IMG/VR virus record: IMGVR_UViG_3300010149_000088
Coordinates: 1 to 30,498 of that record
Strand: one strand, 5' to 3'
Length of the DNA: 30,498 nt
From: a virus
The translations under genes were made by a program, and so were the position numbers. How positions within the stretch are numbered: position 1 is the first letter of the stretch; each line of letters starts with the position of its first letter. This document shows positions 749 through 30,498 of this stretch, piece after piece. The notes beneath the pieces are model-generated. The model saw nothing but the letters and a program-made list of their open reading frames with translations. It was not told the DNA's origin and ran no database searches.

Positions 749-2020
749 ATGAAAAGAAATAGAACATTTTTACCTGAATTTAAAGTTGACTTGGTCGTTT
801 CTGAGTTATCTCAGGTGGTGGATTGGGGTTTAAAACAAATGAACGTACCTGACACCTGGAAAGTAACTCAAGGGGAGGATATAGTTTGCATGGTCATAGA
901 TACTGGGCATCCTATTCACTCTGACTTGCAGGATAATTTAATATTAGGTAAGAACTTCATAAAAGGAGAAACAATTTACGATAAAAACGGACATCAAACT
1001 CATTGCTCAGGCATTATTTGCGCAAAGAATAATGATTTTGGAATGGTTGGAGTCGCTCCAAAGTCCCAGTGTATTTCTGCGAAAGCCTTATCTAATTCCG
1101 GCTCAGGTTCATATCAAGGCTTAGCGGAAGCCTTAGATTATGCAATAGAAAAAAAGCCTGATGTGATATCAATGAGTTTGGGCGGGCCTAATTCTTCTCC
1201 AGCGCTAGAATCTAGAATAAAGAAGCTTTACGACATGAATATTCCTATTGTTTGCGCAGCTGGAAACTCTGGTCAAGGAGGCGTGAATTGGCCTGCGGCA
1301 TACAAGGAAACTATTGCCGTTGCTGCCTTTGATAAAAATGGTAAAGTTGCTAATTTTTCATCAAAGGGTGAGATGGTTGAATGGGCTGCCCCTGGAGTCG
1401 GAATATACAGCGCTTACTTAAATAATGCCTACGCTTCGCTAAGCGGGACATCAATGGCCTGTCCTTTTATAGCTGGAGTTATATGTTTAATGCTTGCCAA
1501 ACATAAAAAACAAGAAAGAGAAACTGGAAAAAATGACTGCAAGACTGTAGAGCAAATTAGAGAGCATTTATTGAAGTATACTCAAGACAAGGGGGAAGTG
1601 GGAAGAGATAAGAGTTGGGGATACGGAGTGATAGACGTAAAAAAATTAATTCTTGATGGGGGCGAGGAAGCTCCAAAACCAAAGCCTAAGCCAGAGCCTG
1701 AACCAGAGCCTGAACCAGAGCCTAAGCCAGAGCCTAAGCCAGAGCCTAAGCCAGAGCCTAAGCCAGAACCAGAGCCAGACATTCCTCATCCTTACCCGGA
1801 GCCTAGTCCAAGGAAGGAATCAAAAAGAAATTTGTATTTATGGGTTGGGCTGGCTCTATTGATTGTGTCGGCATCTTTGTTTTACATTTTTTATGCAAAG
1901 CCTTTTTCTAAAGAAGAATTATATATTCCTTATATAGATGAAAATGGAAATGTAGATTTTGATAAAAAACTCGAATATGAACTGTGGGAAGATGGGGTAT
2001 GGCGAGAGAAGGAGAAATAG
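749..2020 (+). CDS. Subtilisin-like serine protease (S8) with C-terminal membrane anchor
   Basis: This 423-aa protein contains a complete peptidase S8 catalytic set: Asp51 in VIDTGHP, His82 in NGHQTHCSG, the oxyanion Asn173 in AAGNSG, and Ser235 in SGTSMACP. The catalytic domain spans about residues 25-300. A low-complexity spacer of alternating Pro with Glu or Lys follows at about 309-343, then a hydrophobic segment at about 362-383 flanked by KESKR, and a 40-residue acidic tail. No N-terminal signal peptide or propeptide is obvious. I infer a tail-anchored enzyme, since only the C-terminal segment looks membrane-spanning, with the protease domain probably cytoplasmic. S8 proteases are unusual among phage late genes, where maturation normally uses a dedicated prohead protease. 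That enzyme is encoded separately at 10113. Possible roles are processing of virion proteins or attack on host proteins. Its 3' end overlaps the next small gene. Confidence 0.92.
1672..1785 (+). repeat. Tandem Pro-Glu/Pro-Lys coding repeat in the protease gene
   Basis: Short imperfect units resembling CCAGAGCCTAAG and CCAGAGCCTGAA are repeated head to tail inside the S8 protease gene. They encode the alternating Pro-Glu/Pro-Lys spacer between catalytic domain and membrane anchor. Such PE/PK tracts are usually extended spacers. The repetitive DNA would be prone to copy-number change by slippage, which would alter the reach of the protease domain without breaking the frame when whole units are lost. 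Confidence 0.85.
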
Positions 2021-18004: not shown

Positions 18005-18295
18005 ATGAAAAAGAGTAAGGAAAAAGAAATTTTAGAATTTCAAATATATAGACTAGTGACAGCTCTCTATAAGGACTTCTTGGATAAAGTAGAAGGTCTC
18101 AGCGAAGAGCATAGAAATCAATTTGACAAGCTAAAGAAGTCAATGCCCGAAAAAGAAGATTTAATTAATCAAGCTGAATTTTTAGATAAGTCTCAATTAA
18201 ACTATCTAAGAAAAAAAATACTAGATAATGGAAATGACTGCAGAAGAGAATTAATTCTTATGTTAGAAAACTTTGAAATAAACTTTAAAAAATAA
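18005..18295 (+). CDS. Small helical protein, possible tail assembly factor (96 aa)
   Basis: A 96-residue, highly charged all-helical protein with no Cys-based or enzymatic motif. It has helices such as ILEFQIYRLVTALYKDFLDKV and LNYLRKKILDNGNDCRREL. It lies between the tube gene and the genes just before the tape measure, where tail assembly chaperones are normally encoded. The ATG follows an SD-like AAGGA. I do not recognise the family; the assembly role is by position only. Confidence 0.55.
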   Translation: MKKSKEKEILEFQIYRLVTALYKDFLDKVEGLSEEHRNQFDKLKKSMPEKEDLINQAEFLDKSQLNYLRKKILDNGNDCRRELILMLENFEINFKK

Positions 18296-18351: not shown

Positions 18352-19194
18352 ATGAAAATTGACGAAAAAAAAATATTGTATTCCTTCTCTATAGATATCG
18401 ATAAAGAATCAGAAGAGCAGGTAGAAAAAACGAAGAAAAGAAAAAATAAAGAAACTGGAAAAATGGAATCTGTAAAAATTACAGAAACTAAAAAAATCAC
18501 CAAGCCAGTAAAGTTTAATGTGGTTATAAAAAAACCTAATCGAACTCAATTAGAAGACGGAGATATGTTCTATAGTTTAGAGCTAAACAAATTTATAAAA
18601 ATGGGCTTACTCACAAAAGCTATGCTAGCCAAGCAGTATGGTGCAAACGGGGGAGTCTGGACAGATAAAGAGCAAAAAATTTATGCCGATTTAATTTTCA
18701 AAATGAATCAAAAACAGATGGAAGTTCAGGCTTTTTCGGTTTTCTCAGAGAAGGGTAAATTATCTGGAAGGCAGGATGAGAAGCTTAAATCAGCAATGCA
18801 GGATTTAGCCGATATTAAGAAAGAGCTTACAGAGTATGAAATGCTTCAAAATTCCCTCTTTGATCATACCGCCGACATAAAAGCAAGAAATCGAGCTATA
18901 ATGTGGTATATACTGCATTTAACTTATTTTTCGGAAGGAGATTCAAAAGAAGCTCCCCTTGAAGAAATGTTTGAAGGTTCTGATTTTTCAGAAAGATATG
19001 TTTCTTACGAAAATAAAGAAGAAGATGGTGATGAACTTTATGAGAGAATAGTAGATAAGATTTCCTCTGTAATTACTATATGGTATATAAGTGGGTCTCA
19101 GGACAGGGATAGCCTCGAAGCTTACTTGGAGGATATGAATTCAGAAAAAGAAGTTGAGAGTTTAGATGAGCAGCCTGAAGAGTTAAATGCTTAA
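18352..19194 (+). CDS. Putative tail assembly chaperone, first gene (280 aa)
   Basis: This 280-aa acidic protein begins with a strand-forming segment, YSFSIDIDKE, a basic linker, and KPVKFNVVIKKPNRTQLEDGDMFYSLELNKFI. That last pattern is typical of phage tail-assembly chaperone N-terminal regions, which copy features of the tube protein's partner surface. A helical middle contains KSAMQDLADIKKELTEYEMLQNS. The end is acidic (ESLDEQPEELNA). It overlaps the next gene by eight bases. In many phages the second chaperone part is made by ribosomal frameshift; here the second frame has its own ATG and lies in the +1 frame. Call is based on synteny and composition. Confidence 0.6.
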   Translation: MKIDEKKILYSFSIDIDKESEEQVEKTKKRKNKETGKMESVKITETKKITKPVKFNVVIKKPNRTQLEDGDMFYSLELNKFIKMGLLTKAMLAKQYGANGGVWTDKEQKIYADLIFKMNQKQMEVQAFSVFSEKGKLSGRQDEKLKSAMQDLADIKKELTEYEMLQNSLFDHTADIKARNRAIMWYILHLTYFSEGDSKEAPLEEMFEGSDFSERYVSYENKEEDGDELYERIVDKISSVITIWYISGSQDRDSLEAYLEDMNSEKEVESLDEQPEELNA

Positions 19195-20185
19195 TGAAAA
19201 GTTTAAAAACTTAGAGAATATATATCATCAGATAAAAAACGGGTACTCTGAAACCTCGTTATTCGGTAAAAAAGTATTCATAAAACATGCCACAGCGGAG
19301 GACTCAGCCCTCATAGCTAAAGAAAAAGGAAAGTTCGATAAAAAGTCTAAAAAACTAGGGGTTATGAGTGAGTCTGAGCTTCTTGATTTTTTACAAAGAA
19401 ATGGGTCTTGGAGCAAAGAGGAAGAGGCTTTTTCCGAAAAAACGGAAAAAGAAATATTAGGCTTGAAAAAGACTAGAGATAAAATGATATTAAAAAAGCA
19501 TAAGGATGCAATTAATGATAGGATAAAAAAACTAGAAGAAGACGTAAAATCAAACAGAAAAAAAAGAGACTCTTTAGTTAGGAATACATCAGAAGAGTAT
19601 TCTGAAAAAAAATCAAACGAATTTTTTATTAGAAATTCCCTATTTAAGGACGAGGACCTTAAGGAACCTTTTTTCACCTTAAGTGAATTTGAAGAATTGG
19701 AAATAGAAGAGATTTCAGAAGTTTACGCTAATTATAATAAATCTCTAGAAGGATTTTCAAATGAAAATATCAGACAAATATCTATTGAGCATTTTTTCTT
19801 TTCAATATTTAGTTTATTCGGAGAAGATGTATCAGGATTTTTCTCAAAAAGTCATTTTAATTTAAGTTTTTACCAAATTAATTTACTAAGCTTCGCAAAA
19901 ATGTTTAGACATATATTTAAAGAAGAGCAAATACCCGAAGATATTAGAGATAATGCCGAAAAAATAATGGATCATTTAAGATCTGAAAGAGAGGGGCAAA
20001 AAAAGCTGAAAGAGACTAAAGAAAAACTTGAAAAATCTAGTGGGTTCGGTTTTTCAGGGGCATCTAGGGAGGAATTAACTGAAGCTGGAATAGATGTCGG
20101 CGGAGCTGAGGATATACATTCTATAGCTAGTAAGAAGGGAGGTTCTCTAAATATGGAAGATTTTATCGAGATTCATAAAAAATAA
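19187..20185 (+). CDS. Putative second tail assembly chaperone (332 aa)
   Basis: The ATG at 19187 lies inside the last codons of the preceding gene, in the +1 frame, so coupled re-initiation is likely. The protein is charged and helical, with a long Lys/Glu-rich coiled coil at about residues 75-130. A central segment (IEHFFFSIFSLFGEDVSGFF then FYQINLLSFAKMFRHIF) is more hydrophobic and could bind the tape measure helices. The C-terminus has a Ser/Gly stretch (SSGFGFSGASREEL). It is immediately upstream of the tape measure gene, the canonical place for a chaperone that keeps the tape measure soluble. I see no catalytic motif. Confidence 0.6.
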   Translation: MLNEKFKNLENIYHQIKNGYSETSLFGKKVFIKHATAEDSALIAKEKGKFDKKSKKLGVMSESELLDFLQRNGSWSKEEEAFSEKTEKEILGLKKTRDKMILKKHKDAINDRIKKLEEDVKSNRKKRDSLVRNTSEEYSEKKSNEFFIRNSLFKDEDLKEPFFTLSEFEELEIEEISEVYANYNKSLEGFSNENIRQISIEHFFFSIFSLFGEDVSGFFSKSHFNLSFYQINLLSFAKMFRHIFKEEQIPEDIRDNAEKIMDHLRSEREGQKKLKETKEKLEKSSGFGFSGASREELTEAGIDVGGAEDIHSIASKKGGSLNMEDFIEIHKK

Positions 20186-20214: not shown

Positions 20215-23200
20215 ATGAATAACGTAGTAAACATTCCAACAGGGGCAACAGGATATAGAAACAGCATTGTGTCTCAAGCTAGATCTGCTCAAAAAACAGT
20301 GAACAGGATGCAGATGAGCCCGCAGTTAAATTCAAAAGGATTTGTTCAACCTTTGGGAAAAATAACAAACTCTGCCAGTGAGTTTCAAAAATCAATGGAC
20401 GCTTCTGCAGCTCGAGTTTTTGCATTTGGTGCAGCTGTAGGGGTTATTAACGGAATATCAGATTCTTTTAAAGCTTTAATTGTTTCTGCGGCTGAAGTAG
20501 AAAAATCACTTAAAGATGTTCAGGTTGTCATGGAAGCTAGTAACGCCCAAATGAAAGAGTTTGGCAAGGGTATATTTGATGTTGCAAAAAACACAGCATC
20601 GTCTTTTGATACGGTAGCTCAATCAGCTATAGAGCTAGCTAGGCAAGGTTTAAGTGCGGAAGAGACTATAAGTAGGGTTAACTCAGCTTTGGTTTTGTCA
20701 AGGTTGTCGGGGTTAGACGCGGTTAAATCAACAGAAGCTTTAACTGCGGCTATAAATTCATTCAACAAAGAAGGTGTAACTCACGAGCAAATAGTTAATA
20801 GAATGGCTAACGTAGATGCCTCGTTTGCGGTTTCTTCTGCAGACTTAGCGGAGGCAATATCCAGGGCTGGAGCAGTTGCTCAATCATCTGGAGTTTCATT
20901 TAATGAATTGGCGGCTATAGTAACCGCAGTTCAACAAAGAACTGCTAGAGGGGGCTCGGTAATTGGAAATGGTTTTAAAAGTATTTTTACAAGAATTAAA
21001 AGAAGTGGTGTTAGGGAGTCCCTTGAGGAAATAGGTGTTTCAACAAAAAAAGTAAATGGAGATTTTAGATCTTCTATTGATATATTAAAAGATTACGCAG
21101 CAGTCTACAAAAACCTTTCAGACGCTCAAAAATCTTATACATCAGAGCAAATTGCTGGAGTCTTTCAGATTCAAAACTTACAAGCATTATTGCAAGATTT
21201 AAATAGCGGATATTCCGTCTATAATAAAGCTCTAGGCGTAGCTAATAACACCACGACTCAAGCTACAGATAGAAATAAAGAACTGAATGAGACTTTATCT
21301 GCGGTTTTTACGCAAACAAGCTTGGGCGCTAAAGAATTAGCCGCTAGACTTGGGGAGCTAGCTGTATCAGACTCTTTTAAGGATATTTTAAAAGCGGTTG
21401 GCAAACTGGCAGAGTTTTTAAATAAAGCTTTAGATGAAAATCAAGGCAGCAATTTTGCCAAAAATCTTGTTAAGGGTTTTGGAAGTTTTATTACTGGACC
21501 CGGATTGGTAATAATTGGCGCTGCATTTATTAAGGTATTCGCTCTAGTTGGGAAGTTTGCAAAAGAAGCTTTTTCTGACTTACTTGGAGTAAATAGGGAA
21601 ACTAAGAGGCAGCAAGGTTTGCAGTCCGCAATAGGTTCAATACTTCTAAATAATGCTGGCGTTTACAATAGAATTTTACAAGCAGGAGCAAATACTGCAA
21701 AACAAGAACAAATAATTCTTTCTGTAATAAAGGCTGAAACGGCTGAAAGAGTAAAACAAGAAGCTTTAATAAGAAAGATAGCTAGCAGCAGAAGCTTAAC
21801 TGGGATAGGGGTTTCTGAAAAAGGATTTATTCCCGCTGGAAAGAATTCAAGAAAAGGTAAAAAAACTCTAGGTCTTGCGGGGGGGTTTTTGCCCGCTATA
21901 AACAGGGAGAGTTTAGACATTTCGAGAGGTGTTGGTGGGGCAAAGGGCGGAGATAAGCCTGTCGTTTTGCCCAGTCATAAGATGGGAGGGGGTAGAACAG
22001 AAAGCGTTGTAGCTCATACCGGAGAATGGATCGTCCCTAATTTTGGGGGATCCGGAGGAGACGCAATTTTTAATAGAGCCATGGCTCAATCAATAGGTTT
22101 ACCGTCGGGAGCTAGGCAGATCACGGCGGCTTCAGGTTTGGTTCCTAATTTTTCAACAGGAAAATCAACAAAAAAAATCTCAAGACCCTCCCTGGAGTTA
22201 GGCTGGAGGAAAAATGGCAATTCCCAATTATCCAAAAAGACTGACTTCAATGATACGTTTTCAGCTAAGATAAACACTTTTAAACAAGCCTTGAGTTCTT
22301 CTCAGGCTAAATCTGAAGCGAAGCAAAAATACACGAAAATACTTCAACCTCAACTGGAAGACAGTAGGGGAAATAAATATAAATCTTTCTGGAAAAACAA
22401 TAAATGGAACGATCATGAGAAAATAAAAAAATTAAGTTTTGAGGAAAAAAATAACTTAAAAAGATCTTACTCTATTAATAGGGAAAATTATAAAAATTTC
22501 TCCAAAGAAGGTTTCGGGCAAATGATGAAGTCAGCCCCTTATAACGGATCTAAGAAATATCTTAGAGATATTATCTCTCAAGAAGGGTATAAGGGCTCCA
22601 AGCAGCCAAGAAAATTAACTTCTAGATTTGCCGCACTTCAAAAAAACTTGTCTGGAGCTGTAGGAGAACTAAAAGGAGTTAAACATCTTGAAAAAATTGG
22701 ATACAAGGAGGCTAAAATAATTCCTAAAGCTGGCAGCTTTGATTTTCAAGCTAAGGATAAAAAAGGAAAGAAGGTTCTTTTTGAAAGCAAGCAAAAAGAA
22801 AAACAAAATGTTTCTGAATTTTTAAAAAAGGGAGCCACTGAATATTTAAAAAATATTGAACTTCCAGGATTTAAGAATGGTAAAGTTGACTCAATAAATT
22901 TAAACTCAGTTAAAGTTCAGGGATCTAAGTTATTTCCTGGGGGAGTTAATGCCTTGTTGTCCAGCTCGACAAAGTTAAATAATTCCAAAATAACCCACAA
23001 AGATTATGGAGTATCTGGCGAGTCGAGATCCAAATACGAAGAGATGGTTAAGAGTATTGAAAATATTTGGAAAAACCCTTCGGTAAACAAAAAAACAAAA
23101 GAAAGTTTGGTAGATTCTTTTGAACTTTTTGCTGACCCCAAAACAAGAGTATTAAAAAGTTTTTCTTCGGGTTTTATCCCAAACTTTGACAACTCGAAGG

Positions 23201-26200
23201 GAGTTATGACCAGTCGGGGATATTTAAATAATAGGCAGATAGCTCTACTCAATAGAAGAGAGGGGACATACCCAACAAAATCAGATGTAAATAAAACTAG
23301 AAATAGTGACGAAAAATTATATATGAATATGTTTTCGAAAGAAGACTTGAAATTAATAAATTCCGTCGAATCAAAACATTCTAAGAATAAAATAGCAGCA
23401 GCTAAAACCAAATCTAGAGAACAAAAAAATAAAATTAAAACTATAGACGCTTCAACTCAAGCCACTATGTTGATAGCATCTAATAATGTTAGAAGGAGGA
23501 TAGATACTACAGTTTCTCGAAAAGACGCTCAAGGTGTAGATAGGAAGACGAGATTGAAGTATAGAGTTGAAGGAATAAAATCAAACAAACTCAAGGATAC
23601 AGAAGAAAGCCTTAGGAATAGGGTGGAAAGTTTAATGAAAAAAGAATCTTCATCCCTAGCTTCTCAGATTTCAGGGGTTAATAGTTTCTCTGGGCATAAT
23701 GCGAAGATAACCCAGTTAGCTAATGCGGGTAGCGTGGGTTCTGCTGCTGGGTCTATATTTGAAACAGCCTTAAAGTCAATTAGTAATAATAAATTATTCA
23801 CAAAAAATAATGCTAGATTCGATATAGCTGGATTTCCTGATAAAAAACTACAATCTCTGTTTGGATATGCAACCCCTTACGCTGATGCAAAAATAGGATA
23901 TACAAAAGGGACTAAGGAGGATTTTGATTCTAAAGTTTTAGCTTTAGGGGCCGGGAAAACTAGTTTATCCAAAGCTCAAAAAGATAAAATGGCAGCAGTA
24001 TCTTCTGATACTAGGTCTAAATTCGGCCCAGCTAGAAAAGGGTCTGCTAAAAGAGCTGCCTCTGGGTTTATTCCAAATTTCGCAAGAGGGATTTCTGGTC
24101 GACAGAGAGAAAAGTTAAGAAGCATGGGCATTGATCCAGCTACGGTATCCAGAAAAAAATATAGATCTATTATGTCAGATAAAAACCAAGGGCTAAGTGA
24201 GTCGAAAACGACAATATTTAAGGGTAAGTCAGATGGTTCATTTCAAAATAGAAATTCAAACTTTTCAAAAAGATTTATTATGTCGGGAGATTCTAGAGCA
24301 AAAAGAATCTCTATTTCTGCAGGATCTAAAGCTGGTGCAATAGGGGCAAACATGGCAAGCTCATCAAAAACTTCACTAGAGCAGTCTTTGGCAAGTTTAA
24401 CTAAAAGAGTATCTAGGTTGGAGTCAAAACAACAACTTAATTTTTCTAAAGGGTTTATACCTAACTTTTCAAAAAAAGAACCTGCGACCTTAAACCGATT
24501 ACTTAGAGATGCTGTGTCAAATAACGTAGGTGGCGTAGCAACTGAAAACGGATTATCAATAGATAAAGAAAAAAAATTAATTATTAAAAACGGCAAGCCA
24601 ATAAATTTTGGAAACAAGGCTCACGTAAATCCGATAATTAATAATGAGAAAGTTTTAAGTCATATCTCAAAAAAAATAAACAACCAACTTTTTGAAGCTC
24701 AAAAATATGGAACGAAGGAAAGTATTTTACAAAAATTAGGGTTTAGCGCTGACCTAGATAAAAACAAGGCAAAAGTTGCTCAAGATGCTAGAAACATGGC
24801 TGGAGCTTTAAATGTAAGAAGGGAAGGCGGCACTAATAAAGTTGTGTCAAATGACCCTAATTTTACTTTAGGAAAAAGAGCTCCCAATGGAGAGCATACC
24901 ATTGCCTTAAAAAAATCCGCAGTAGCTCAAAACATAAAACGACTAGGAGAGAGGGGTTTTTCTGGAGTGGGTCAGGCGACTGCTAATAATTTATTATCAA
25001 CCCTATCCATCCAAAATACAAAAAGAGGTGGAACTAAAGGGGGCCTATCCCTAAAGAGGAGTTTTCAAACCACTTCTTTAATAGCTAAATTAATAAAAAA
25101 TAGAAAAATCAAAATAGGGCAAAGATTTATAGAAACAAAAACTGCGATTTCTAAAAAAATGAGCGGTCTTATAGATGGATATAATCATAACGTAATGACT
25201 GTTAAAGAGAGGCTGGCTTTGAGAAAAGCCAACTTAAGGAGAAAAGAAGCTGTTAGAAAAGAGTCGGCCAGAATTAGAAGAGAAGAGAAAAATTTAAGAA
25301 AATTAAAAGATAAAGAAGCTAGACAGCTAGCGAGAGGTAAAAAGCTGGAAGAGAAAGAGTTAAGAAGGAAGCAGGATTTGGAGAAAAAAGCCGAAGATAG
25401 AAGAGTTAGGAAGGAAAGCATTAAGAAAATTGGAACTTGGTTTACTGATAAATCGGGAAAAGCTGTAGACATTACGAGGGGTTCGCTTGCAAGAGCAGGT
25501 CGCGGGGCATTATCTGTAGGCGGGGGCATAAGCTCAGGTATATCAGCGGTAGCTGGTGGTATAGGTTCGGGCATATTAGCGTTAGGTAGCGGTGTGTCGA
25601 CTGGAGCGAGGGGTATCAAAGAGGGCTTTTTGAGAAATTTAAATTCAGTTGCCGAAAAAAAATCAAACTTAGGCCGACAGATAAAAGCTGCAGGACTTAA
25701 GAAAATTAGGTCTAGCAGGGATTTCGCAAATAAAGCTCAGGATAGGGTTGGATTGGCAGCCTCGAGGTTGTCGCCTAGATCTCTTAAGCCTAAAATAGGA
25801 GAAATTAGAGAACGTATTAAAGAGGGATCTTCAAGCGCTTTTAAGAAAGTTAGTAAAAAATTCTCTTCCATATCTCAAGGATTGGAAGAAAGATTCCCAG
25901 CGAAACAGTCTATCCAGAAAGAGTGGATTGCTTTGGCGAAAAGGTTAGATGTGAAAAATAATTTGAGTAAGGCTGGAACTTCAATAAAAAATAGATTTAA
26001 TTTTAAAAGAGAAGAGTTGGGGTATAAAACTAAGAAGGCTATATCCGCAGGAGTAGCTAGAGCTAAAGAAAATATCACTTCTGGGGCTCAAAAAATAAAA
26101 GAAAATAAAAGTAAAATTTTATTAGCTGGGGCAGCAAGTTTAGCTACATTACTAAAATCTAGTTCTGTAGCGGGCGTGGGAGGTTTAGCGGGTAAGGGAG

Positions 26201-29200
26201 TCTTGGGAGCTAAGGTTGGAGGAGGAGTTATGGCTGGAGGAGCTTTAGGTTTACCAGCTGTTGGCGTATTAACTGCACTTGGAGTGACCACTGTAGGGGG
26301 AGGCCTTGGCCTGGCTTACTTAATAAGAAGAGTTCAGAAAAGAAAAAGGGAAGCGCAAAAGCAAAAAAAAGAAGCGAGAAATAAAACACCATCTCTTTCT
26401 GTGTCTAGCATTTTTGATAGGGACATTAGGGGATCCGAAAAACATTTGTCAAAAGTAAGCGAAACAAAACAAGAAATCAAAAACCTAAATAAACTTATAA
26501 ATCAAGCTAAAGTTTTTGGGTCGGGAGAAGAATTTAGATCTGGAGGTTATCAATCAGCTAAGTTTGATGAAGCAAAGTTTAATAGAGAGGCTAGCTCCGT
26601 AAGAATTGATGGAAGAAATAGGAGAGTTGATAAAGAAAAAGGGACTAAAGGAAGGTTTTTGAATGTTCAGCCGTCTTTTTTAGATAGAAATGATCAGCTT
26701 TTTAAGGACTCCGGGTTGAGCGAGTTAAAGAAAAAAAGAGACTGGAAAAAATATCAACTTTCTATACTTGACGGAAAGTTTAATCCTGATTTGGGCGTTT
26801 CCAGTAGAACGTGGAAAGCGAACCAGAGATCTTATATGATAAAGGAGTTGGCCGAAGAATTAAATAGAAAAAAAGAGTATGCCTTTGAGAAAAGACAGAG
26901 TAATTTTTTATTAAAAAATAGAGGTTTTGGGAAAATGCAGGGAATCGTGGATTGGGCAAGTAATAAATACAACACAAGAAAGCAAAGCAGAAAAGACGCA
27001 AAGAAGCAAAGAACTTTCAGGGGTTTTAGGAAAGGTAGATTTTCATCAGGATTTATTCCAAATTTTTCGCCAAGGCATTGGAGTTTTAAAAAAAGACAAA
27101 AAGAAAGATTAAAAAGAAAAAAAAGACACGAGAAATATGATGATGACCTCCTGATGAAACAAGTGTGGCTCTCGAATAAGTTTCCAAAACTTACCAAAGG
27201 TGTTTCAGATTTTTCAAAAAGAATTAAAAGTGAAGATGGTCGGCCTGGTTTTAGTGATTTGTTTTTCTCTAAAGGTTTCATTCCAAGCTTTTCAGGTAAA
27301 CCTTTAGCCGAGGCTATATCTAGAGAATCAGCAGCGTTAAAACAAAGAGGGTTGTCTCAATCTTTAATACGAATCAATCAGCATAATTCTTTAAAAAGCG
27401 TAAAAAATCCAAAAGGGTTAGCGATAACTAATAAGGTTGATGAGCCTGCGGGAATTAATCAGGGAATATCAATGTCTAAGAAATCTGGAGTCGATCCAAA
27501 AAAACATGGAATGGTGCCTAATTTTTCAAGGTCCGGATTTTTTAGGTCAAAGCCAGGCAGTAAGCCAAAAAATAAAAAAGATAAAGATGGGGACCAACCT
27601 CCTATCCCAGAAGGCGGAGGCGGTCAAATTGGACTAGCTTCAGCATTTATTGCTCCCATGGTATCGGCGCAAATAGCTGACGGAAGGCAGGAGTATGAAA
27701 TGGACAGCGCATCAATCATTGGGAAAAGCGCAGCTGATTTAGCTGGATATGGAGGTCTGCTTGGGGGTATGAAGGGAGCTCTAATTGGCGGAGGAGTTGG
27801 CACGGTTTACGGGGCGAGTAAGGCTATATTTGAAGGCGACTCCAACTCATTGAAGAGTGATTTAGCTAATAAAATGGTCGAAGCACAAACAAAGATAAAT
27901 AAAGAGTTTGCAAAATACAAAACCGCCGAAAATTATGCAGGCGCTCTCTCGGATTTAAGTAATGCAACTAAAGCTGGAGACGTAGCTGGCATAAAAAAAG
28001 CATCTGCGCAAATTCAGAAGGCTTTGCAAGATTTAAAAAACCCCAGCTTGGTGGCAGAGTTGAACACTGTCGGGAATGGAATGGATTCTTTTGGCGAAAA
28101 AATAAAAATACTTGGAAGCTCAATGGAGGAAGCTCAAAAGAAAACGGTATTATTAAAACAATCCGCCGATACAATGGCGGAGTTGCAACATTTAGAGGGG
28201 ACGGGGGCTGGCTTTGGAACAAGGGCAATGATGGCGATTCCAGAAATTCTTTCTGGGCTTCCTGATATATTGGGGGGAAGGAAATCTGGCAGACAAATAA
28301 ATGCAACAAGCCCATTTGGAGGGAAGATAACTTTAGGGGATAATCAAAACATGGATCAAGCTAGAGTTTCCATGGAAAAAATTATGCCATCAATAGTATC
28401 CGCAACAAGGTCCGATTTTGACAAGGAGGCTATGAAATTATTTAAGCAGAGTTCGCCGTTTATTATCGACCCGAAAACTGGAGGTGGGTACGAAAATTTT
28501 TCAGAATTTAAAGAGGCGGCTAGGAACAAAATAAATCAGACTCAAGCGGAAGAACAAATAATCAAGTTAGAATCAGATGCTAATTTATTAAGAACTTTGG
28601 GGGCTAGAACTGATAGGCGTGGAGAAAAAGATCAAACTCGAGTTTTAAATGACCTACTTCAATCAAATATGATAAAAGATTTGGTTAAATCAGGGGCTCA
28701 GGGAGCAGCTATAGCAAAAGGCCTGACCTCCAATCTGGCGGGAGTTTCATTTGATGAAGATTTTGATTTTTCAAAAGCTGTAAGGAGTGGAGAGCACGTA
28801 TCAATGGGGTCGGGTAGTCAAGTATCATCAGATGATTACGTGCAAGATAATCAAATCGTAGCTTTGAGGCAACAAATGCTCAAAGAAATTAAGCAGATTC
28901 AGGGCAATATGAAGGTCTTAGAAGGTGCAGAGGGTGCAGCAGCGGGAATTCTTCAAGCAATGTCAAATATTGATGCAGATCTAAAAGAAGCTGTTAAAAA
29001 ATCCGAAAGACTTTCTGAAACTATAAATAACTTTACAAAAAACTTTGAATTTTCTAGAGAAGTAAAAACAAAAAAAAGACAACAAACAATGTCAAATTTA
29101 TCTCAAGGAGATGATATTTTATTTTCTGCGGGAATGATATCCGATGAAGAGGCTATCAGAAGAAATAAGGCCAGATCTGATTTTGAAATAAGAAAGTCTG

Positions 29201-30498
29201 GACAAGAGGAGTTAACTAGTAGGGTTTTAAGAACAATTTCTGAAAATGCCGACCCTAGTTCAGTAATTGATGTGGTTGGCTTACAAAAAAAGCATGATGT
29301 TCCAGTCGACAAATCTTCTGGAGGTACAATTCAAAGGCTTGAAAAAGAACAAGATCAAGAAAGAAGGCCAGAAATACAGCAGATAACAGAGCAGTTCGCT
29401 AAGTTCGCTCAATCTCAAGGAACCGCAAACATAGGGTTAAATAATATTGCCGGTTTTCTCTCTCAATTAAATACAGGTGGAAAAACTAACAACAATATAC
29501 TAAATGAGGTCAAGAGACACATTAAAGAAGTTTCTGTGAATACTTTAATGAGCTTACAACAAAATAAAAAAGCTAACGAGTTGTTAAAGATGAGGGGTCA
29601 TGTGGAGACTTTAAGTAAACTTGGAAGCTCTATATATAACGAAGGAACTATAAGCCAAGTTAAATCTGCCGTTGAAGGAGGAGGGCTTCAGGGTTTTGAT
29701 TTTTCTGATACAACCAAGGAAGAGTTTAGTAGAGGGGATTTTAATGGCGGTTCTCTTAGTAATCATGATTCGGGACTTCGCGATAGAGCTAGAAAAGGAC
29801 AAAGCCAAATGTTTTTAGAAAGTCTGTTTGGCATTGATTTGACAGGAGAAACAGGCAGAAGTAAAATGGAAAACCAAAAAAACACTGCGCTTTACAATCT
29901 AGATTTACTTAAAGATATTATCCCTGGTGATTTATTTGATAGACTAAAAGATAAGATAATGGAAGCAGCAAAAGCATTAGAGAAATTTAAAAAAACGCAA
30001 TCAGAACAATATGAAAAACTTGGACTAGATCCTAACGCAATGGCGTTACAAGACGCTGCGATGAAACAGCTTGTTGTGCAAACTAATATGGCATTAACAC
30101 TTAAGAGTATTGACGAGGGATTGGTAAAAAGAGATGGTACTATATTAGATGTATTTAGAGCAATTCAAAATCTTTTACCAACTAGCCCTCCAGCTACTCC
30201 AACAGCTACTCCAACAGCTACTCCGCCAGCCACTCCAACAGCTACCACGACAGCTAGTCCGCAGAATGCCCCGCCACCTGCAACGGTTACTGCCACGCGG
30301 GATAGTCGCTATTCGCTACCTGCTTATTCGCAGAACGCTCCACCATTAACATATTTAGATCCAAAAAATAATCCAAATAACCAGACTAGACCGCCGGTTA
30401 ATGTTCCGAATCCATTTCTACGACCAAAACCAAGGGGCAACAGAGGTCCGGACGGAAACCCTGGCCCGGGCGGGCAACCTGGAGGATCAGAATCAGAG
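20215..30498 (+). CDS. Giant mosaic tail tape measure protein (3' end beyond window)
   Basis: One open frame of 3428 codons runs from the ATG at 20215 to the window edge without a stop. Residues about 60-365 are a tape measure core of the PhageMin-tail type (VEKSLKDVQVVME, AAINSFNKEG, AEAISRAGAVAQSSGVS, AAIVTAVQQRT). A hydrophobic segment lies at 423-453, and the tape-measure motif HTGEWIVPNF ends at residue 610. The region to about residue 2440 is a mosaic: repeated GFIPNF(S/A) peptides, two PD-(D/E)XK-type modules, unknown basic modules, a basic coiled coil and Gly-rich hydrophobic segments. From about 2540 it becomes helical and coiled-coil again, then ends in a Pro/Thr repeat and a short collagen-like tract. 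The protein sets tail length and is ejected with the DNA. Two putative chaperones lie upstream. Core identity is firm; module roles are inferred. Confidence 0.93.
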   Translation, partial: MNNVVNIPTGATGYRNSIVSQARSAQKTVNRMQMSPQLNSKGFVQPLGKITNSASEFQKSMDASAARVFAFGAAVGVINGISDSFKALIVSAAEVEKSLKDVQVVMEASNAQMKEFGKGIFDVAKNTASSFDTVAQSAIELARQGLSAEETISRVNSALVLSRLSGLDAVKSTEALTAAINSFNKEGVTHEQIVNRMANVDASFAVSSADLAEAISRAGAVAQSSGVSFNELAAIVTAVQQRTARGGSVIGNGFKSIFTRIKRSGVRESLEEIGVSTKKVNGDFRSSIDILKDYAAVYKNLSDAQKSYTSEQIAGVFQIQNLQALLQDLNSGYSVYNKALGVANNTTTQATDRNKELNETLSAVFTQTSLGAKELAARLGELAVSDSFKDILKAVGKLAEFLNKALDENQGSNFAKNLVKGFGSFITGPGLVIIGAAFIKVFALVGKFAKEAFSDLLGVNRETKRQQGLQSAIGSILLNNAGVYNRILQAGANTAKQEQIILSVIKAETAERVKQEALIRKIASSRSLTGIGVSEKGFIPAGKNSRKGKKTLGLAGGFLPAINRESLDISRGVGGAKGGDKPVVLPSHKMGGGRTESVVAHTGEWIVPNFGGSGGDAIFNRAMAQSIGLPSGARQITAASGLVPNFSTGKSTKKISRPSLELGWRKNGNSQLSKKTDFNDTFSAKINTFKQALSSSQAKSEAKQKYTKILQPQLEDSRGNKYKSFWKNNKWNDHEKIKKLSFEEKNNLKRSYSINRENYKNFSKEGFGQMMKSAPYNGSKKYLRDIISQEGYKGSKQPRKLTSRFAALQKNLSGAVGELKGVKHLEKIGYKEAKIIPKAGSFDFQAKDKKGKKVLFESKQKEKQNVSEFLKKGATEYLKNIELPGFKNGKVDSINLNSVKVQGSKLFPGGVNALLSSSTKLNNSKITHKDYGVSGESRSKYEEMVKSIENIWKNPSVNKKTKESLVDSFELFADPKTRVLKSFSSGFIPNFDNSKGVMTSRGYLNNRQIALLNRREGTYPTKSDVNKTRNSDEKLYMNMFSKEDLKLINSVESKHSKNKIAAAKTKSREQKNKIKTIDASTQATMLIASNNVRRRIDTTVSRKDAQGVDRKTRLKYRVEGIKSNKLKDTEESLRNRVESLMKKESSSLASQISGVNSFSGHNAKITQLANAGSVGSAAGSIFETALKSISNNKLFTKNNARFDIAGFPDKKLQSLFGYATPYADAKIGYTKGTKEDFDSKVLALGAGKTSLSKAQKDKMAAVSSDTRSKFGPARKGSAKRAASGFIPNFARGISGRQREKLRSMGIDPATVSRKKYRSIMSDKNQGLSESKTTIFKGKSDGSFQNRNSNFSKRFIMSGDSRAKRISISAGSKAGAIGANMASSSKTSLEQSLASLTKRVSRLESKQQLNFSKGFIPNFSKKEPATLNRLLRDAVSNNVGGVATENGLSIDKEKKLIIKNGKPINFGNKAHVNPIINNEKVLSHISKKINNQLFEAQKYGTKESILQKLGFSADLDKNKAKVAQDARNMAGALNVRREGGTNKVVSNDPNFTLGKRAPNGEHTIALKKSAVAQNIKRLGERGFSGVGQATANNLLSTLSIQNTKRGGTKGGLSLKRSFQTTSLIAKLIKNRKIKIGQRFIETKTAISKKMSGLIDGYNHNVMTVKERLALRKANLRRKEAVRKESARIRREEKNLRKLKDKEARQLARGKKLEEKELRRKQDLEKKAEDRRVRKESIKKIGTWFTDKSGKAVDITRGSLARAGRGALSVGGGISSGISAVAGGIGSGILALGSGVSTGARGIKEGFLRNLNSVAEKKSNLGRQIKAAGLKKIRSSRDFANKAQDRVGLAASRLSPRSLKPKIGEIRERIKEGSSSAFKKVSKKFSSISQGLEERFPAKQSIQKEWIALAKRLDVKNNLSKAGTSIKNRFNFKREELGYKTKKAISAGVARAKENITSGAQKIKENKSKILLAGAASLATLLKSSSVAGVGGLAGKGVLGAKVGGGVMAGGALGLPAVGVLTALGVTTVGGGLGLAYLIRRVQKRKREAQKQKKEARNKTPSLSVSSIFDRDIRGSEKHLSKVSETKQEIKNLNKLINQAKVFGSGEEFRSGGYQSAKFDEAKFNREASSVRIDGRNRRVDKEKGTKGRFLNVQPSFLDRNDQLFKDSGLSELKKKRDWKKYQLSILDGKFNPDLGVSSRTWKANQRSYMIKELAEELNRKKEYAFEKRQSNFLLKNRGFGKMQGIVDWASNKYNTRKQSRKDAKKQRTFRGFRKGRFSSGFIPNFSPRHWSFKKRQKERLKRKKRHEKYDDDLLMKQVWLSNKFPKLTKGVSDFSKRIKSEDGRPGFSDLFFSKGFIPSFSGKPLAEAISRESAALKQRGLSQSLIRINQHNSLKSVKNPKGLAITNKVDEPAGINQGISMSKKSGVDPKKHGMVPNFSRSGFFRSKPGSKPKNKKDKDGDQPPIPEGGGGQIGLASAFIAPMVSAQIADGRQEYEMDSASIIGKSAADLAGYGGLLGGMKGALIGGGVGTVYGASKAIFEGDSNSLKSDLANKMVEAQTKINKEFAKYKTAENYAGALSDLSNATKAGDVAGIKKASAQIQKALQDLKNPSLVAELNTVGNGMDSFGEKIKILGSSMEEAQKKTVLLKQSADTMAELQHLEGTGAGFGTRAMMAIPEILSGLPDILGGRKSGRQINATSPFGGKITLGDNQNMDQARVSMEKIMPSIVSATRSDFDKEAMKLFKQSSPFIIDPKTGGGYENFSEFKEAARNKINQTQAEEQIIKLESDANLLRTLGARTDRRGEKDQTRVLNDLLQSNMIKDLVKSGAQGAAIAKGLTSNLAGVSFDEDFDFSKAVRSGEHVSMGSGSQVSSDDYVQDNQIVALRQQMLKEIKQIQGNMKVLEGAEGAAAGILQAMSNIDADLKEAVKKSERLSETINNFTKNFEFSREVKTKKRQQTMSNLSQGDDILFSAGMISDEEAIRRNKARSDFEIRKSGQEELTSRVLRTISENADPSSVIDVVGLQKKHDVPVDKSSGGTIQRLEKEQDQERRPEIQQITEQFAKFAQSQGTANIGLNNIAGFLSQLNTGGKTNNNILNEVKRHIKEVSVNTLMSLQQNKKANELLKMRGHVETLSKLGSSIYNEGTISQVKSAVEGGGLQGFDFSDTTKEEFSRGDFNGGSLSNHDSGLRDRARKGQSQMFLESLFGIDLTGETGRSKMENQKNTALYNLDLLKDIIPGDLFDRLKDKIMEAAKALEKFKKTQSEQYEKLGLDPNAMALQDAAMKQLVVQTNMALTLKSIDEGLVKRDGTILDVFRAIQNLLPTSPPATPTATPTATPPATPTATTTASPQNAPPPATVTATRDSRYSLPAYSQNAPPLTYLDPKNNPNNQTRPPVNVPNPFLRPKPRGNRGPDGNPGPGGQPGGSESE
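20398..21300 (+). other. Tape measure core domain
   Basis: Residues about 62-362 hold the conserved globular/helical start of phage tape measure proteins, with alternating Ala/Ser-rich helices (VFAFGAAVGVINGI, AIELARQGLSAEET) and the family-typical SSADLAEAISRAG. This part anchors the identity of the whole protein. Confidence 0.85.
22621..22920 (+). other. PD-(D/E)XK nuclease-like module A in the tape measure
   Basis: Between the copies at 22135 and 23170 lies a complete restriction-endonuclease-fold signature: helix SGAVGELKGVKHLEKIGY with Glu818, then FDF with Asp843, then KVLFESKQK with Glu857-Ser-Lys859. The order (helix Glu, strand Asp, strand ExK) and the spacing match PD-(D/E)XK nucleases. 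All expected catalytic residues are present, so the module may be active. This is a motif-based call without structural or homology confirmation. Confidence 0.7.
23680..23960 (+). other. PD-(D/E)XK nuclease-like module B in the tape measure
   Basis: Between the copies at 23170 and 24064 is a second, dissimilar candidate: AAGSIFETALKSI with Glu1183, then ARFDIAGF with Asp1203, then PYADAKIGY with Asp1224-Ala-Lys1226. The (D/E)xK slot uses Asp. The arrangement again follows helix Glu, strand Asp, strand (D/E)xK. Sequence similarity to module A outside these residues is slight, so it is not a simple duplication. Confidence 0.6.
25201..25425 (+). other. Basic coiled coil in the tape measure
   Basis: Residues about 1663-1737 are almost entirely Lys, Arg, Glu, Leu and Ala in heptad-like spacing (for example KNLRKLKDKEARQLARGKK). 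The net charge is strongly positive. This would form a long helix able to bind DNA or membrane phosphates. It sits in the 860-residue gap between peptide repeats at 24451 and 27049. Confidence 0.7.
25501..25620 (+). other. Gly/Ala-rich hydrophobic segment 1
   Basis: Residues about 1763-1790 are built of Gly, Ala, Ser, Ile and Val (SVGGGISSGISAVAGGIGSG), a pattern of closely packing membrane helices with GxxxG-like spacing. Basic sequence flanks it on both sides. Confidence 0.6.
26113..26340 (+). other. Gly/Ala-rich hydrophobic segment 2
   Basis: Residues about 1967-2038 contain two or three hydrophobic stretches (ILLAGAASLATLL; VMAGGALGLPAVGVLTALGV; TVGGGLGLAYLI), ending with RRVQKRKRE. This looks like a multi-pass or hairpin membrane-inserting region. 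Such segments in tape measures are thought to help DNA cross the inner membrane. Confidence 0.65.
27628..27835 (+). other. Gly/Ala-rich hydrophobic segment 3
   Basis: Residues about 2472-2540 hold GLASAFIAPMVSAQI and then LLGGMKGALIGGGVGTVYGA. The second part has repeated glycine spacing typical of membrane-active or colicin-like glycine-zipper helices. It lies shortly after the last peptide repeat and marks the return to ordinary tape-measure sequence. Confidence 0.6.
30190..30279 (+). repeat. Pro/Thr-Ala tandem repeat in the tape measure C-terminal part
   Basis: Units resembling CCAACAGCTACT are repeated in tandem and encode TPTATPTATPPATPTA-type sequence at about residues 3326-3352. It is an extended, probably disordered linker. 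Local base composition is visibly richer in C and G than the rest of the window. Confidence 0.85.
30439..30498 (+). other. Short collagen-like Gly-X-Y tract at window edge
   Basis: The last codons read as six consecutive Gly-X-Y triplets starting at GNRGPDGNPGPG (from about residue 3408). The tract may continue beyond the window. Collagen-like repeats are common in phage fibres but less expected in a tape measure protein. Confidence 0.5.

Follow-up and report, generated by a model that had tools for sequence, protein, structure and literature searches.

Phage tape measure proteins (TMPs) are regarded chiefly as rulers and membrane conduits, and polymorphic toxins usually consist of a single C-terminal toxin accompanied by an immunity gene. 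The enzymatic TMPs already known bear cell-wall hydrolases. In phage lambda, labelling locates the TMP at the inner membrane while injection is under way, and TMPs are generally expected to enter the host with the DNA (PMC13190303). Polyvalent proteins include nuclease, GNAT and P-loop domains, for which separation by proteolysis has been predicted (PMC5512222). The window analysed here, the whole stretch of 30,498 nucleotides of a viral record from IMG/VR, encodes a TMP from an extensive group of uncultured siphoviruses. The TMP group numbers at least 539 relatives in IMG/VR and bears motif-delimited cassettes instead of cell-wall hydrolases. Its N-terminus matches PF10145 (E 1.5e-30) and PHROG TMP families (best 9e-47), and it has in common with phage TMPs (PhageMin_Tail, PF10145; PHROG 4211 and others) this N-terminal domain, membrane-like segments and a gene order in which the TMP follows chaperone-like genes and precedes the tail tip. 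Placement downstream of the chaperone-like genes was syntenic in 21/21 genomes, and the genes downstream of the TMP in relatives read as tail-tip genes by eye. The N-terminal part of the locus is as follows.

18352-19194, forward strand: conserved gene adjacent to the TMP, tail-chaperone-like by position (21/21 genomes; 12/12 in the motif-poor group)
19187-20185, forward strand: second conserved gene adjacent to the TMP, tail-chaperone-like by position (21/21 genomes; 12/12 motif-poor)
20215-30498, forward strand: TMP open reading frame, 3428 residues in the window, open at the window end
20554-21159, forward strand: PhageMin_Tail domain, TMP residues 114-315 (PF10145 match)
21481-21570, forward strand: hydrophobic membrane-like segment, hydropathy peak 2.14, about 200 residues upstream of the first clear motif

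The TMPs of this group share a layout of an N-terminal TMP domain with a membrane-like segment, an array of interchangeable modules, a module of about 70 residues (F1 or F2) and a long C-terminal tape, with a short peptide at nearly every module boundary, where modules are gained and swapped. Membrane-like segments occur at 0.23 per 1000 residues within the arrays and at 2.37 outside them, so that they are about ten times scarcer in the arrays, and the array ends in F1 or F2 in 72 of 77 cases. In the window, the array comprises the following elements, motif copies being identified from sequence.

21823-21840, forward strand: GFIPAG, a weak copy in the preliminary description; by alignment a different element, GF[VI]PxGK, of the nearest relatives only
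21883-21900, forward strand: GFLPAI, by alignment a decayed true copy at the position of the relatives' motif 1
22021-22044, forward strand: GEWIVPNF, by alignment with relatives a separate conserved TMP element
22135-22152, forward strand: motif copy GLVPNF (GLVPNFS), residues 641-646
22153-23163, forward strand: module F35, residues 647-983, common to L002, no Pfam match
23170-23187, forward strand: motif copy GFIPNF (GFIPNFD), residues 986-991, linker pLDDT 31-39
23188-24057, forward strand: module F0, residues 992-1281, the commonest module (49 segments in 46 TMPs)
24064-24081, forward strand: motif copy GFIPNF (GFIPNFA), residues 1284-1289, linker pLDDT ~50
24082-24444, forward strand: inter-motif segment, residues 1290-1410, unique to the window by segment clustering
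24451-24468, forward strand: motif copy GFIPNF (GFIPNFS), residues 1413-1418
24469-27042, forward strand: long segment, residues 1419-2276, unique to the window, Lys/Arg-rich with glycine-rich hydrophobic stretches
27049-27066, forward strand: motif copy GFIPNF (GFIPNFS), residues 2279-2284
27274-27291, forward strand: motif copy GFIPSF (GFIPSFS), residues 2354-2359
27292-27501, forward strand: module F1, residues 2360-2429, the constant last module, NPxGLxVxNTxDEPxGxxQGI, pLDDT 91-95
27508-27525, forward strand: motif copy GMVPNF (GMVPNFS), residues 2432-2437, the last of the array

The window TMP thus holds seven good copies of GF(I/V)PNF and one degenerate copy. All ten positions at which the preliminary description placed the peptide do contain what was seen there; of its ten copies, seven are sound, while the three weaker ones differ in kind. 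That at 21883 is a decayed true copy, because the relatives aligned there show a perfect motif (GFIPNF, GYIPNF), whereas those at 21823 and 22024 belong to other elements. The second of these, HTGEWIVPNF, is distinct from the motif and lies in the alignment between motif 1 and motif 2; it is possible that the motif spread by copying of this element. The window TMP has eight [IVL]P[NS]F tetrapeptides, against a mean of 0.11 and a maximum of 2 in 2000 composition-preserving shuffles of the same protein, and the hexamer is absent from every other reading frame of the window. Nucleotide identity between copies is 0.74 over the 18-nucleotide core, 0.40 at third positions and 0.30 in the flanks. Third codon positions are therefore near random and the peptide is what is maintained, in agreement with the earlier claim of maintenance at the peptide level.

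For the family as a whole, all claims of frequency rest on 61 full-length TMPs gathered without use of the motif, the first DNA scan being left out of them since it selects for the motif. In this set, 60 of the 61 TMPs contained the motif, each in at least two copies, mostly four and up to 9-11, and copy number tracked array length (rho 0.82). The ten-letter consensus is [A][AS]xG[FY][IV]PN[FY]A. Over 395 copies the whole peptide is strongly conserved while synonymous codons vary, the G, P and N of these copies being partly fixed by the search pattern. Within a single TMP, motif variants resembled one another more closely than they did across TMPs (z 4 to 9), a real likeness for which base composition or copying may account. 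The distant TMPs SPbeta YomI, Stills, AM5 and KB12-38 had no copy, a tblastn search of 50,697 records of named phages found none with F1 or F2 modules, and a text search of 5.39 million papers for GFIPNF, GFVPNF and GYVPNF gave no match; the motif thus appears to be undescribed.

The peptide lies at module boundaries, and the copies show no fixed spacing. Homology between TMPs begins just past the motif and ends just short of it: relative to the masked motif, breakpoint starts peak at 0 to +10 and ends at -10 to 0, with 2.2 breakpoints per motif vs 0.73 per identically masked decoy, a threefold difference. Homologous TMPs therefore do exchange modules exactly at the motif, and its proposed role as punctuation between unrelated modules is supported. 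The 315 inter-motif segments fall into at least 79 families, 43 of them seen once. The motif stands to the left of F1, as found by HMM, in 53/61 cases, to the right in 54/61 and never inside, and flanks F8 on the left in 12/12 and on the right in 11/12. AlphaFold models place the motif in disordered linkers (pLDDT ~31-51) beside folded modules. It shares with polyproteins that are cut at repeated consensus sites a conserved, short peptide marking where domains meet, within linkers predicted to be exposed.

Several modules of the group resemble enzymes. GNAT (7e-8) and SNase (7e-6) matches were above the Pfam cut-offs, with a further match to a P-loop domain (1.5e-6) and one to a GHKL ATPase slightly below the cut-off (5e-5), and nuclease-like domains also occur among the inter-motif families. 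Effector-type domains are thus seen across the family; the window's own modules had no Pfam match, and effector function in this phage is a candidate one, resting on sequence patterns. F35 carries a GxxGE...D...ExK pattern that is PD-(D/E)xK nuclease-like by eye. F0, which is homologous to F8, has the conserved columns GxxFE...FD...DxK and a folded core with pLDDT mostly 84-96. Its fold had no clear match in Foldseek (best E 0.65) or VIA-align (best Z 5.1, in a row spanning residues outside F0), and a PDB sequence profile gave only chance-level matches; a nuclease fold for F0 is compatible with this. HAD-like F5 and nuclease-like F4 had no PDB profile match. Kinship between F1 and F2 was rejected, hhalign giving nothing significant.

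The motif has the look of a signal at which cargo destined for the bacterium is cut or docked. It would be a recognition site separating the injected cargo domains and would most likely serve cleavage, and cleavage is predicted. Our best explanation of the whole, a tentative one, is that the TMP carries injected cargo and is cut at the motif. During infection, the TMP would exit the tail and, like known TMPs, insert into the inner membrane; the module array would then be exposed to the cell. A putative protease would recognise the motif and cut between modules. This cutting, the least certain step, could free effectors resembling nucleases, acetyltransferases or kinases at an early stage of infection. 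The protease-site reading is a best guess, though no cognate protease was found: Peptidase_S78 prohead protease was present in 0/38 records, and no Pfam peptidase occurred inside any of 18 TMPs. More doubtful is the broader proposition that in abundant uncultured phages the TMP is a multi-effector polyprotein of swappable anti-host or counter-defence enzymes, which would be delivered at the membrane before the genome and set free by one protease cutting at one universal peptide.

Conservation of the motif would look identical for a binding site, and docking without cutting is a serious if unlikely alternative; the partner could be, for example, a tail-assembly chaperone, the wall of the tube or a host factor of the membrane or periplasm. 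A bound partner would hold modules unfolded in the tube or pull them through the membrane, and the boundary position, strict letters and variable spacing fit this, as do the two chaperone-like genes directly upstream of the TMP in every genome compared. The likeness of variants within a TMP is as if one partner reads all copies; it could also stem from base composition or copying, and being so confounded is therefore not taken as proof of a binding partner. One lineage, the L174 clade, bears on this directly. Here motif, array and constant F1/F2 module have disappeared together, in a single nested loss concerted across all copies. Across TMPs, F1/F2 is present in 70 and absent from 6 TMPs with at least three motifs, vs 3 and 13 with fewer (Fisher p 5e-9). 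The motif-poor group retains both chaperone-like genes (12/12) and the tested upstream tail genes. Docking on these would thus be dispensable, which weakens the earlier suggestion of a dock for a tail chaperone or tube protein, and loss of the motif while the tested tail genes are kept favours a role in cargo over one in tail assembly. A host factor as docking partner is compatible with the data. The TMPs of this clade retain F0 without intact motifs, which counts against the view of the peptide as functional punctuation between modules; as they also lack the multi-module array and F1/F2, that view is limited rather than overturned.

It is improbable that the motif is a passive hinge, kept as an unstructured joint and a convenient recombination spot between TMP genes. 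Its place in low-confidence linkers and the homology breakpoints at the motif would fit, but passive linkers tolerate many sequences, whereas here the entire peptide is conserved despite codon variation (with the caveat on G, P and N given above), third-position identity leaves scant DNA homology for recombination, and one lineage lost all copies in concert. As to the protease itself, one gene of the window might be considered.

749-2020, forward strand: subtilisin-like serine protease (PF00082, 1.5e-45)

That this subtilase cuts the motif, as might be supposed because one phage encodes both the protease and the repeat, is very improbable; a subtilase (S8) was found in 1/50 related or control records, 37 of which have motif TMPs, so that it is rejected as the general motif protease, while it could act as a local extra cutter. 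Least credible as the motif's partner is the small upstream gene at 18005-18295, present in 24/26 motif-rich vs 0/12 motif-poor loci, since L282 (four motifs) and L283 (eight motifs) have an unrelated gene in its place, which refutes it as a general partner and shows that its pattern reflects clade membership.

If the modules are released into the cell, this would be a new route for first-minute effectors, which would act where defences of the SNIPE type also strike (PMC13190303). The motif also provides a simple handle for finding and excising unknown effector domains, useful because so many (43/79) of the module families are seen only once, and makes the fate of the TMP after ejection, a long-standing question, testable with one peptide. 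Like polyvalent proteins, the TMP group is predicted to have several diverse domains of injected-effector type per polypeptide (Iyer et al. 2017, PMC5512222). In contrast to those proteins, for which built-in metallopeptidases are invoked and an internal processing peptidase is frequent though not universal, no peptidase was detected in the TMPs searched; the carrier here is a TMP and a fixed peptide marks the boundaries, while PMC5512222 never mentions 'tape'. Sle1 and Tme of contractile injection systems resemble the group in their TMP-like coiled-coil carriers, variable effector part and membrane hairpin, but belong to bacterial nanomachines and have a C-terminal effector part, and a repeated boundary peptide is not described in the available part of that report (PMC13277306). 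Cassette exchange behind a conserved carrier is shared with polymorphic toxins (PMC3482391). Unlike the polymorphic toxins, the TMP group places several inter-motif segments midway along a structural protein, and it carries a rapidly changing stock of cassettes, enzyme-like domains set off from one another by a constant boundary code.

The sequence tests used identify the protein carrying the repeated GF[IV]PNF-type peptide (the motif) in this 30,498-base virus record from IMG/VR as a tape measure protein (TMP): it matches PF10145 (E 1.5e-30) and PHROG TMP families (E down to 9e-47).

20215 to past the end of the window: TMP, final gene, 3428 aa inside the window, PF10145 and PHROG matches

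Every peptide copy reported in the preliminary description was found at its coordinates, and this TMP contains eight tetrapeptides of the form [IVL]P[NS]F where shuffled sequences would give 0.11. Between copies, the 18-nt cores are 74% identical in nucleotides, while third codon positions, at 40%, lie just over the flanks (30%), so it is the peptide rather than the DNA that is conserved, as had been claimed. Alignment with relatives divided the weak copies: that at 21883 is a true copy, decayed, but 21823 is a different element and the GEWIVPNF at 22024 a separate, conserved TMP element.

An IMG/VR scan with one codon form of GFIPNF[AS] returned at least 120 stretches, and among the matches listed in this motif-selected scan 96 of 120 ORFs had two or more copies, and three or more occurred in 71 of the 90 that reach 1000 aa. 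Because such a scan selects for the motif, a motif-independent set was gathered via the TMP N-terminus (family A6). Among the matches listed in that set, 60 of the 61 TMPs with an intact 3' end had at least two copies, four was their most frequent copy number, and copy number climbed with the length of the array, the modules strung between copies (rho 0.82). The highest count observed was 15, in a TMP of at least 3796 aa that runs off its locus (L205), and 384 copies give the consensus [A][AS]xG[FY][IV]PN[FY]A. In the TMP of L171, a Neomarinimicrobiota MAG locus, most copies are PNY with a non-aromatic second residue (GMVPNY, GHIPNY, GKIPNY, GAIPNY), as if the code had drifted in concert. No copies occur in the distant TMPs of Bacillus phages Stills and SPBc2 and Lactococcus phage AM5, or in those of Vibrio phage CKB-S1, Pseudoalteromonas phage KB12-38 and Lachnospiraceae prophage-like loci. 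The A6 N-terminus is common to at least 539 IMG/VR stretches and its best INPHARED matches are about 27% identical to the window's; this is a large siphovirus group, apparently without isolates. Modules of families F1 or F2 matched no named phage among 50,697. Related contigs are binned in MAGs of Flavobacteriales, Halobacteriovorax, Verrucomicrobiales and Neomarinimicrobiota, tentative pointers to the hosts that may be binning artefacts.

The preliminary description had asked whether modules swap exactly at the motif, and they do. In BLAST between TMPs with the motif swapped for random residues and decoys masked identically, match starts peaked 0 to 10 residues past the motif and match ends 0 to 10 ahead of it, and motifs averaged 2.2 ends each where decoys averaged 0.73. 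By HMM in the motif-independent set, F1 was preceded by a motif in 53 of 61 cases, followed by one in 54 of 61 and never interrupted by one; for F8 the left and right counts were 12 of 12 and 11 of 12. Only high flank values are informative, since a random point already has a 40% chance of a motif within the search zone used. The 315 inter-motif segments of 100 TMPs fell into 79 families (43 of them single) with a recurring fixed order: F3 often at the start, F0 or F8 after it, extra modules, and F1 or F2, the last module in 72 of 77 cases. F0 and F8 are homologous (hhalign 4e-8) and have in common a conserved GxxFE ... FD ... DxK pattern that resembles PD-(D/E)xK nucleases, making them putative nucleases; structure and PDB profile searches found neither fold nor profile match for F0. 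Firm assignments lie elsewhere: a GNAT module (E 7e-8), an SNase module (E 7e-6) and a P-loop family, which matches a P-loop protein of solved structure at 1.5e-6. A GHKL ATPase module scored just below the cut-off, and candidate ADP-ribosyltransferase, HAD, kinase and ParB-like modules were assigned by eye only. Among the largest modules observed is a 798-aa GHKL-ATPase-like one flanked by two TMP motif copies (L030:4358-6751, minus strand).

AlphaFold2, run on window aa 780-1300 with 38 sequences, predicts that the F0 core folds (block means mostly 84-96) and gives low pLDDT, about 31-51, at both flanking motifs; F1 is likewise predicted folded (91-95), with about 44-62 at the motif ahead of it. 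Membrane-like segments are ten times rarer inside arrays than outside (0.23 vs 2.37 per 1000 aa), with one about 200 aa ahead of the array's first motif; past the last motif, others are often found at a distance of 30-220 aa. Being rare inside and present on either side, they suggest that the array is usually soluble and flanked by possible membrane anchors. The window is atypical, with hydrophobic stretches inside one of its long segments and none scoring past the last motif. During lambda injection the TMP is known to reach the inner membrane (PMC13190303).

In one motif-poor lineage, the L174 clade, the TMPs measure about 1450-1750 aa and retain at most one intact motif, with remnants such as KGSLPNL and KGTIPNF at former motif positions; F0 is detectable in most, F1/F2 in none. 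Across TMPs, F1/F2 was present in 70 and absent from 6 with at least three motifs, against 3 and 13 with fewer (Fisher p 5e-9). Since these TMPs form one group nested within motif-rich TMPs (support 100/99; beside loci L282 and L283, with L256 outside, midpoint root), loss is the simplest interpretation. The clade has kept the tail genes tested upstream of the TMP, both chaperone-like genes among them, but neither motif array nor F1/F2; the motif is thus not needed for TMP and tail genes to persist, and its presence follows that of the cargo array.

We consider it probable that the motif serves for recognition within the linkers of a TMP that carries cargo, whatever its partner does there. Behind this reading stand the conserved peptide, its boundary position, module exchange, the predicted disordered context and joint loss with the array and F1. 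The likeliest use, proposed tentatively, is cleavage: the array would be exposed within the cell, the TMP cut at the motif, and the released modules might act as enzymes in this phage. Several candidate proteases were considered. The window encodes a subtilisin-like protease with a repeat tail (749-2020; weak PARP match) upstream of terminase, also on the contig of L006 and absent from most relatives; found in 1 of 50 records, it was rejected as the general motif protease. Peptidase_S78 occurred in 0 of 38 records, and no peptidase domain was seen inside 18 TMPs. A small upstream gene was present in 24 of 26 motif-rich and 0 of 12 motif-poor loci, but was rejected as the partner because L282 and L283, with 4 and 8 motifs respectively, are without it. 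This gene (window 18005-18295; homologues about -2100 from the TMP in L131-L149) encodes a conserved protein of about 76-96 aa with an RK[RK][IV]LDxGN signature; in its place the L174 clade and L282/L283 have an unrelated protein of 123-172 aa. The candidates that stay are a host protease and a phage protein that escaped recognition. Ranked second, and less likely, is that a partner docks at the motif and handles each module; the tail chaperone or tube protein suggested earlier as the docked partner falls below a cargo role, mainly because the L174 clade keeps the upstream tail genes that were tested, chaperone-like ones included, without the array. That the motif is a passive linker ranks last and is improbable.

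The window TMP would work similarly to the polyvalent proteins of Iyer et al. (PMC5512222), a paper in which the word 'tape' is absent and which looks to built-in metallopeptidases. In TMP-related effectors of contractile injection systems, described in 2026 (PMC13277306), the effector part is C-terminal. The motif letters had no match in the literature searched. The TMP is a known kind of protein; what is new here is a probable cargo carrier of this kind whose boundary peptide is universal.
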